DNA from: a virus
DNA: 23,328 nucleotides
IMG/VR virus record: IMGVR_UViG_3300030116_002384
Span: 3,575 to 26,902 of that record
Strand: one strand, 5' to 3'
Under the pieces are notes generated by a model that searched no databases, had not been told where the DNA came from, and was given only the letters and a program-made list of their open reading frames with translations. A program made the position numbers and the translations under genes. Below are positions 9,628 through 10,597 of this stretch, in pieces. How positions within the stretch are numbered: the first letter of the stretch is position 1; every line of letters starts with the position of its first letter.

Positions 9628-9985
9628 ATATTTTAACGAAGACGAACTAAAGTGTAAGCATACTGGTCAGTGTGATATGGACTGGGCATTCATGCAGACC
9701 ATAGAAAGAATTAGAGAACGCTGCGGTTTTCCATTTAAAGTAAGCAGTGCTTATCGTTCTCCAGAACATCCTATAGAAGCTAAAAAAAGCTCTCCCGGAG
9801 CTCATTCTTCTGGCAAGGCTATGGACATACTAGTCAATGGAGAACAAGCCATGACGCTTGTTAAAATAGCTATTGAAGAAGGTATTAATAGAGTAGGGGT
9901 TTCTCAAAAAGGAGACCGTGCTTCAAGATTTATTCATTTAGATATGGATAACTCTAGAGCTACTCCTCGTATTTGGAGTTACTAA
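9617..9985 (+). CDS. M15-type peptidase, probable endolysin (122 aa)
   Basis: A compact zinc peptidase of the Peptidase_M15_3 type, expected to cleave peptide cross-bridges of peptidoglycan. Visible motifs are SSAYRSPEHP (43-52), SPGAHSSGKAMDI (59-71) and SRFIHLDMD (103-111). The likely zinc ligands are His63, Asp70 and His107. There is no signal peptide, so release through the membrane would need the holin encoded 605 bases downstream of its stop. The frame is open upstream to 9512, but that part only re-reads the end of the virion gene. ATG 9617 is preceded by a purine-rich GAAGAAAG and gives the normal family N-terminus. It overlaps the previous gene by 11 bases. A virion-borne wall-opening role is a less likely alternative. 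Confidence 0.85.
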   Translation: MKYKYFNEDELKCKHTGQCDMDWAFMQTIERIRERCGFPFKVSSAYRSPEHPIEAKKSSPGAHSSGKAMDILVNGEQAMTLVKIAIEEGINRVGVSQKGDRASRFIHLDMDNSRATPRIWSY

Positions 9986-10236
9986 TGTTAGTATTATATA
10001 GAGAAAAAGACCTAGACGAAGCTTACAGAATAGATTGTAGAGCTAGAACTAAGGATAATGTACCTTGGTTGAAAAGAGAAGAATTTAGAGATATCTATGA
10101 AGCTTTATTAGATATGCACTTCACTAAATCGATAGAAAAAAAAGTAAAGAAAACAGAAACAGATGTTTCTGAATGGGTTATAGAAACTGTAAACAAAGCT
10201 TTACAAAAAACTATTGATTTTGAACCTGAAAAATAA
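9985..10236 (+). CDS. Small unknown protein in the lysis cassette, 83 aa
   Basis: I do not recognise this protein. It is soluble and charged, beginning MLVLYREKDLDEAYRIDCRA, with a helical, Lys/Glu-rich second half. The start was set at ATG 9985 because it overlaps the previous stop (TAATG, 9983-9987) and is preceded by GGAG (9975-9978) at 6 bases. An in-frame TTG at 9973 would place that GGAG inside the gene and is rejected. It lies between the M15 peptidase and the MscS-like gene. It may be a lysis accessory or virion assembly protein; nothing in the sequence decides. Confidence 0.6.
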   Translation: MLVLYREKDLDEAYRIDCRARTKDNVPWLKREEFRDIYEALLDMHFTKSIEKKVKKTETDVSEWVIETVNKALQKTIDFEPEK

Positions 10237-10237
10237 C

Positions 10238-10597
10238 ATGGACTTAGAACAATATTATGCCGAAGCTATCGGCTTTTTAATAACTTTGCTTACTGGACTA
10301 GCCTTGAAGGACTGGTCTATGTCTTTCATAAAAGGTGCAACCTTTAGATTTAGCAACTCCTTTAAAGAAGGAGATAAAGTCATTCTCGATGGACAAGTAG
10401 CAATGATTATTAAAATAGGATTTACTCAAACTGTATTCGGGGTATATTCTGATGATGGTTATACTTGGAGATATATTCCTAATCAAAAAATAGATTCTAT
10501 AAAACTAGAAAAAGTAGTAGACCAAGATTTACACGCTGACTCAGCTGCTGAGAAAGCTGAAAAACTTAGAAAAATATTGGAGGAAAAAGATGTTTGA
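10238..10597 (+). CDS. One-helix protein with MscS-like beta domain, 119 aa
   Basis: Residues 8-23 form one hydrophobic helix (EAIGFLITLLTGLALK), followed by an amphipathic stretch 26-40. The next part matches the beta domain of small mechanosensitive channels (MscS family, PF00924 type): FKEGDKVILDG (42-52), IKIGFTQTVF (58-67) and WRYIPNQKI (77-85). These correspond to the FxxGD..., I(x)IG...T... and IPN blocks that follow the pore helix in MscS. The C-terminus is a charged helix with no MscS vestibule alpha/beta domain. A full MscS has three membrane helices and about 286 residues, so this is a minimal version. The ATG at 10238 lies one base after the previous stop. It overlaps the holin-like gene by 8 bases, which points to a membrane or lysis role (inference). 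Confidence 0.75.
   Translation: MDLEQYYAEAIGFLITLLTGLALKDWSMSFIKGATFRFSNSFKEGDKVILDGQVAMIIKIGFTQTVFGVYSDDGYTWRYIPNQKIDSIKLEKVVDQDLHADSAAEKAEKLRKILEEKDV

Follow-up and report, generated by a model that had tools for sequence, protein, structure and literature searches.

The window that we analysed, a stretch of 23,328 nucleotides, comes from a virus record of 26.9 kb whose DNA polymerase is ~50–52% identical to those of the pelagiphages HTVC115P, HTVC103P and HTVC104P. Because of this resemblance, the host of the phage is probably a SAR11-type marine bacterium. In the lysis cassette of the window, a small gene that we call mini-MscS (product P0001) is located just upstream of a holin gene (Table 1). 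Its ATG is supported by the homologues L002 and L005, in which an in-frame stop codon is found a few codons upstream. The ATG of the holin gene, together with its GGAGG, falls within the last mini-MscS codons, and the two genes overlap by 8 nt. Both the cassette location and this overlap had been noticed in a first-pass annotation of the DNA and were borne out in our analysis. The 83-aa ORF went unmentioned in that annotation; in another phage lineage, a shorter relative of it (L107:4811-4978) lies ahead of mini-MscS and overlaps it.

Table 1. Features of the lysis cassette in the window, and members of phrog_10198 other than that of phage C72C1
Feature	Position	Strand	Description
M15 peptidase endolysin, 121 aa	9620..9985	+	PF08291 E 4.6e-10; phrog_894
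83-aa ORF	9985..10236	+	between endolysin and mini-MscS; stop codon 1 nt ahead of mini-MscS ATG
mini-MscS gene (P0001)	10238..10597	+	119 aa; one TM3-like membrane helix, a beta domain of five strands and a short helix at the C terminus
TM3-like helix, codons 3-38	10244..10351	+	single long predicted helix
MscS-type beta domain, codons 45-94	10370..10519	+	strands 47-50, 53-60, 64-71, 74-81, 90-92
C-terminal helix, codons 103-118	10544..10591	+	occupies place of MscS alpha/beta vestibule domain
GTA_holin_3TM holin gene, 120 aa	10590..10952	+	PF11351 E 1.7e-16; phrog_3427 'holin' E 1e-24
phrog_10198 member	L058:4443-4790		
phrog_10198 member (KVP40)	L310:2971-3201		

The first-pass annotation had attributed to the mini-MscS ORF one membrane helix and an MscS-type beta domain, marked by the blocks FKEGDKV, IGFTQT and IPNQKI, and neither further helices nor a vestibule. 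All three blocks are contained in the translation, and the rest of this description agrees with the structure model and the vestibule scan given below. The PF00924 profile, which had been proposed as a check, matched the single P0001 sequence below the curated Pfam cut-off (E 0.049; 14.2 bits against 20.2 bits), although this ORF gave the sole PF00924 signal when the whole 26.9 kb record was translated in six frames (E 0.0011). When a phage profile of 20 representatives (shallow, Neff 2.2) was aligned by hhalign with an MscS profile of TM3 and the beta domain (41 rows, of which L118 and L119 had been fetched for their resemblance to the phage protein), the probability was 96.5 and the score 54.0 over 75 aligned columns, while 100 column-shuffled versions scored at most 18.65 (mean 11.5, SD 2.4). 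The AlphaFold monomer, built on a 37-row alignment (pLDDT 75, pTM 0.46), has a helix at residues 3–38, which is followed by five strands and another helix at the C terminus. With this model as the Foldseek query, all 48 PDB matches at E <= 1e-3 belonged to the MscS family (best 4.4e-5, probability 1.00), and the fold was common to three small viral proteins in BFVD (A0A516MLU7, A0A1B1IQW5 and A0A516LVN0; E 5.6e-9, 1.3e-5 and 1.7e-5). The hhalign score and the MscS-only PDB folds thus bear out the beta domain. Independently of the hhalign comparison, a search of 398 Pseudomonadota genomes with the phage profile found 13 cellular proteins, about 281–328 aa in length (E 2.7e-8 to 5e-5), one of which, L312, carries both PF00924 (4e-17) and PF21082 (8.7e-8); the motif GFALKDLAASFIAG of these MscS-type proteins corresponds to GLALKDYSVSFIKG in the phage family. 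A full-length SAR324 MscS was also matched by tblastn, with an E value of 4e-6 relative to the candidate stretches. Searches with P0001 gave no match in PHROGs, no match to any holin family profile of Pfam or PHROGs, and, among PDB sequences, only ribosomal L38-type noise and similar. A chance motif match was rejected on the grounds of the sole PF00924 signal in the record, the shuffle control, the MscS-only folds and the MscS-type cellular matches. Homology of P0001 to the pore helix (TM3) and beta domain of MscS, with TM1, TM2 and the vestibule missing, is well supported, the decisive evidence being the profile comparison, the cellular matches, the SAR324 match and the structure model.

E. 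coli MscS V99–V136 corresponds to P0001 I11–V48 with no gap from TM3a to the start of the beta domain, residues 11-23 covering TM3a 99-111. In this register, the gate residues L105 and L109 correspond to L17 and L21, the kink pair Q112–G113 to K24–D25, and the hinge glycine G121 to G33; the closest cellular subfamily, too, usually has KD at the kink. All 20 phage rows have L, V or I at position 105, L or M at 109, and G at 121. The TM3 register, the gate, kink and hinge positions, and the fold and motifs of the beta domain are therefore alike in the phage protein and the MscS family (PF00924, MS_channel_2nd), whereas bulky residues replace the small ones of TM3. At positions 101, 102, 104 and 106, small residues occur in 5, 0, 35 and 0% of the phage rows (n=20) against 95, 78, 98 and 95% of the 41 MscS rows. 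Every phage row has Leu, Ile or Val at position 106, and G108 alone is retained of the Gly/Ala-rich packing face (101, 102, 104, 106, 108). In E. coli MscS, the A106V mutation causes a gain of function (PMC7299334). The bulky residues could reflect either a ring biased towards the open state or the needs of a lone helix against lipid, the alignment being compatible with both.

Outside the pore helix, the phage protein differs from E. coli MscS in its longer beta hairpin (GYTWRY) and its own C-terminal helix, as well as in being viral and encoded beside a holin. TM1 and TM2 are absent, as family members of 119-170 aa have one hydrophobic helix. A 16-residue helix is the only element after the beta domain in the model, LHxD...EKAxK is conserved in this region of the family, and a scan of 37 members with the PF21082 vestibule profile gave no match at E <= 0.1. 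The hydrophobic core of the membrane helix is short. By inspection, acidic residues lie ahead of this helix and basic ones behind it, a charge pattern suggesting that the topology is likely N-out/C-in with a cytoplasmic beta ring. The nearest cellular relatives in the 398 sampled genomes are gammaproteobacterial-type MscS-like channels of ~295 aa (L312-L324), which have in common with the phage family the motif KD-x-x-x-SF/I-x-x-G and the start of the beta domain; however, they are full-length, more than twice the size, and possess additional hydrophobic segments at the N terminus as well as a vestibule domain (checked in L312, which matched PF21082).

We collected 262 loci encoding relatives, mostly from marine IMG/VR contigs, which formed 19 clusters at 85% identity. 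One scan yielded at least 301 relatives, and hundreds of copies are present in ocean phage contigs. The proteins are 119–170 aa long, save one 99-aa fragment among the 262 loci. Nucleotide comparisons between close relatives gave dN/dS values of 0.03–0.08, which point to purifying selection on a constrained, working gene. Because all 262 loci possess the same truncated architecture and dN/dS is this low, the hypothesis that mini-MscS is a degenerate, decaying fragment of a host MscS was rejected. The family is unnamed and is absent from PHROGs and the annotated phage collection as searched: in the latter, tblastn with P0001 found none at E 0.01, and its weak matches at E 7-9 were all unrelated. 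No relative was detected in named cultured phages by tblastn with three family members, nor by a profile search of regions from HTVC115P, HTVC103P, Mosig, C48C1, KVP40, C72C1, CRP-810 and Venkman. Matches of E. coli MscS in the phage collection by tblastn were not used, as they were apparent host DNA (near-identical to Salmonella, in short records that lack annotation) or came from unannotated faecal contigs. A phage-like contig in a Gammaproteobacteria MAG (TMED104; L117:6001-6775) carries the mini-MscS–GTA holin pair, which hints at a host other than SAR11.

After removal of near-identical sequences, 138 neighbourhoods were left, and the counts that follow are of sequences rather than independent events. 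The first-pass annotation had called for a survey of homologs beside holin and M15 genes, with a scattering away from lysis genes as the result that would speak against it, and the outcome was divided. A GTA holin gene is directly downstream of mini-MscS in 62 neighbourhoods, and a two-helix protein of phrog_10198 is encoded nearby in 18 (directly upstream in 8, one gene off in 10). Another recognised lysis or partner gene is found inside the flank in 34 cases, 20 neighbourhoods are cut or too short, and no recognised lysis gene is present in four that have at least 3.5 kb on either side. However, in the 33 neighbourhoods of the L107 cluster, mini-MscS is apart from the holin gene, following it by about 3-3.6 kb where both are visible, and the copies in T4-like phages adjoin uvsX/DnaB-type helicase or baseplate genes. 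In two loci (L263:3309-3743 and L266:3929-4363), mini-MscS comes right after the gene for a T4-like baseplate hub (gp5-type) and thereby differs in position from the copies in lysis modules.

The arrangement seen in the window recurs in phages with differing surrounding genes. The most frequent mini-MscS/holin overlap is 8 nt (the window and the L145, L146, L154 and L193 clusters), and it persists across mini-MscS proteins that differ by up to about 40%; the holins of mini-MscS phages match that of the window at only 35-61% identity. The pair outlasts changes of the surrounding genes, in at least three gene orders: M15–ORF–mini-MscS–holin in the window, mini-MscS–holin–64 aa–M15–XhlA-like in L145 and L146, and primase–nuclease–mini-MscS–holin in L117 and L130.

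The second recurrent neighbour, phrog_10198, is a two-helix membrane protein that is labelled 'unknown function' and occurs in 355 phage records. In phage C72C1 (L325:3263-3472), a member is flanked by a phage lysozyme (PF00959) and a GTA holin and so fills the very slot that mini-MscS has in the window. In CRP-810 and Venkman, which like C72C1 lack mini-MscS, the slot upstream of the GTA holin is taken by further small ORFs whose products have apparent helices. Both records of the L058 type, 61–63 kb long, possess phrog_10198 and gave no match to the PF11351 holin, so that the GTA holin and phrog_10198 look like alternative partners of mini-MscS. The phrog_10198 protein is a candidate holin or antiholin, and our results bring it to attention as a possible membrane protein of lysis.

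Phage proteins that resemble MscS are not in themselves entirely new, since gp51 of the Paraglaciecola phage PANV1 has been reported as MscS-like by HHpred (99.7%; PMC9239159); for that protein, membrane transport is the only function proposed. On phage MscS, the literature that could be searched, largely outside subscription journals, contained this one protein and general statements on salinity-related viral genes, and the holin-linked single-helix family is undescribed in it. Among miniature forms of MscS, the closest precedent with a known function is TcMscS of Trypanosoma cruzi, which gates under tension (PMC12334622). Like the phage protein, it lacks TM1 and the C-terminal portal (vestibule) domain and has a minimal beta domain; unlike it, TcMscS is eukaryotic, has two membrane helices and proven mechanosensitivity, and has no lysis context. 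Because TM1/TM2, the vestibule and the small TM3 packing residues are missing, we do not file the phage protein as a mechanosensitive channel, though it may work like one. To our knowledge, it would be the smallest MscS-derived protein. In holin/antiholin or two-holin pairs beside an endolysin, for example GTA_holin_3TM cassettes, a small membrane-protein gene likewise overlaps the holin gene. We know of no holin or antiholin that is MscS-derived.

Because mini-MscS usually adjoins a holin or another small membrane protein gene, it probably helps to control the opening of the membrane at lysis. The explanation that we favour, with some hesitation, is that mini-MscS would be a second lysis membrane protein, derived from MscS and acting together with the holin. 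It would represent a phage-domesticated MscS fragment, comprising TM3 and its interfacial continuation, an Sm-like beta domain and a short helix that replaces the vestibule. In MscS, the Sm-like beta domain forms a cytoplasmic ring. P0001 would assemble in the inner membrane as a ring of single helices and work with the adjacent small membrane protein, which would be the GTA-type holin here and the phrog_10198 protein elsewhere. This ring might form a small pore that leaks or is plugged by lipid, or might serve as a scaffold, and might depolarise the membrane or set the moment of holin opening, after which the M15 endolysin would gain access to the wall. Several observations stand against this explanation. 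First, the genes beside the T4-like copies need not be expressed late. Second, the copies of the L107 cluster are apart from the holin, and the four well-flanked neighbourhoods have no recognised lysis gene. Third, phrog_10198, itself of 'unknown function', lies mostly away from lysis genes in the isolates inspected. In addition, the hydrophobic core is short, the confidence of the monomer model is moderate, and the bulky TM3 residues may simply suit a lone helix facing lipid. If a lysis role is true, mechanosensitive channels would be linked to phage lysis, and mini-MscS is a natural case in which to test whether one helix and a beta ring suffice for a pore. A bolder form of the favoured explanation, in which marine phages would have made the bare MscS pore module into a new class of lysis protein, with an open-biased TM3 ring as a pinholin-like trigger of the neighbouring holin, seems to us doubtful.

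The first-pass annotation had suggested a tension-sensing pore, a regulator of lysis timing or a dominant-negative partner of host MscS, and all three are still to be read as suggestions. In one rival scenario, mini-MscS would co-assemble or compete with host MscS-type channels through the TM3 and beta interfaces, jamming them or locking them open, and so give the phage control of solute release. This is consistent with the nearness of the phage TM3b and beta motifs to those of the gammaproteobacterial MscS subfamily (GFALKDLAASFIAG, FQVGDRVTFEGN), with the PF00924 proteins encoded in 58 of 60 sampled Pseudomonadota genomes, and with the gain of function in E. coli MscS caused by a bulky residue at the A106 site. 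However, the phage sequences, across very different phages, are far closer to each other than to any cellular MscS found, their longer hairpin and C-terminal helix are absent from MscS, and their different TM3 packing positions should disfavour mixed rings. The scenario also leaves the holin adjacency unexplained, and we consider it unlikely.

Tension sensing is weakened because TM1 and TM2 are absent and the small-residue packing positions of TM3 are lost, though it is conceivable given the TcMscS precedent. In another scenario, mini-MscS would be an autonomous osmotic safety valve that vents solutes from turgid infected cells and averts a premature burst, its place in the cassette reflecting late expression only. 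TcMscS works as a tension-gated channel without TM1 and the vestibule (PMC12334622), mechanosensitive-channel genes have been reported in marine viruses and to rise there with salinity (PMC13288924), and the T4-like copies outside lysis modules fit a general function. Yet the second membrane helix of TcMscS is missing from the phage protein, and the holin-gene overlap in diverged phages would have no explanation; we consider a valve rather improbable. Least probable, and to our minds quite improbable, is a membrane-anchored protein with no pore, serving superinfection exclusion or, as an antiholin, shielding against premature holin action: the single-helix topology with a cytoplasmic domain, the early-type genes near some T4-like copies, and the coupled expression implied by the holin start within the mini-MscS 3' end would all suit it, but such an anchor has no obvious need for gate positions 105 and 109 to be conserved in 20 of 20 rows.

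A conserved, soluble-looking protein of ~64 aa also recurs in marine phage lysis modules (L116:4260-4454, L146:3251-3451, L058:4783-4977 and L193:4775-4969). It has no significant Pfam or PHROG match, and its gene occupies either the gap between the holin and M15 endolysin genes or that between phrog_10198 and mini-MscS.
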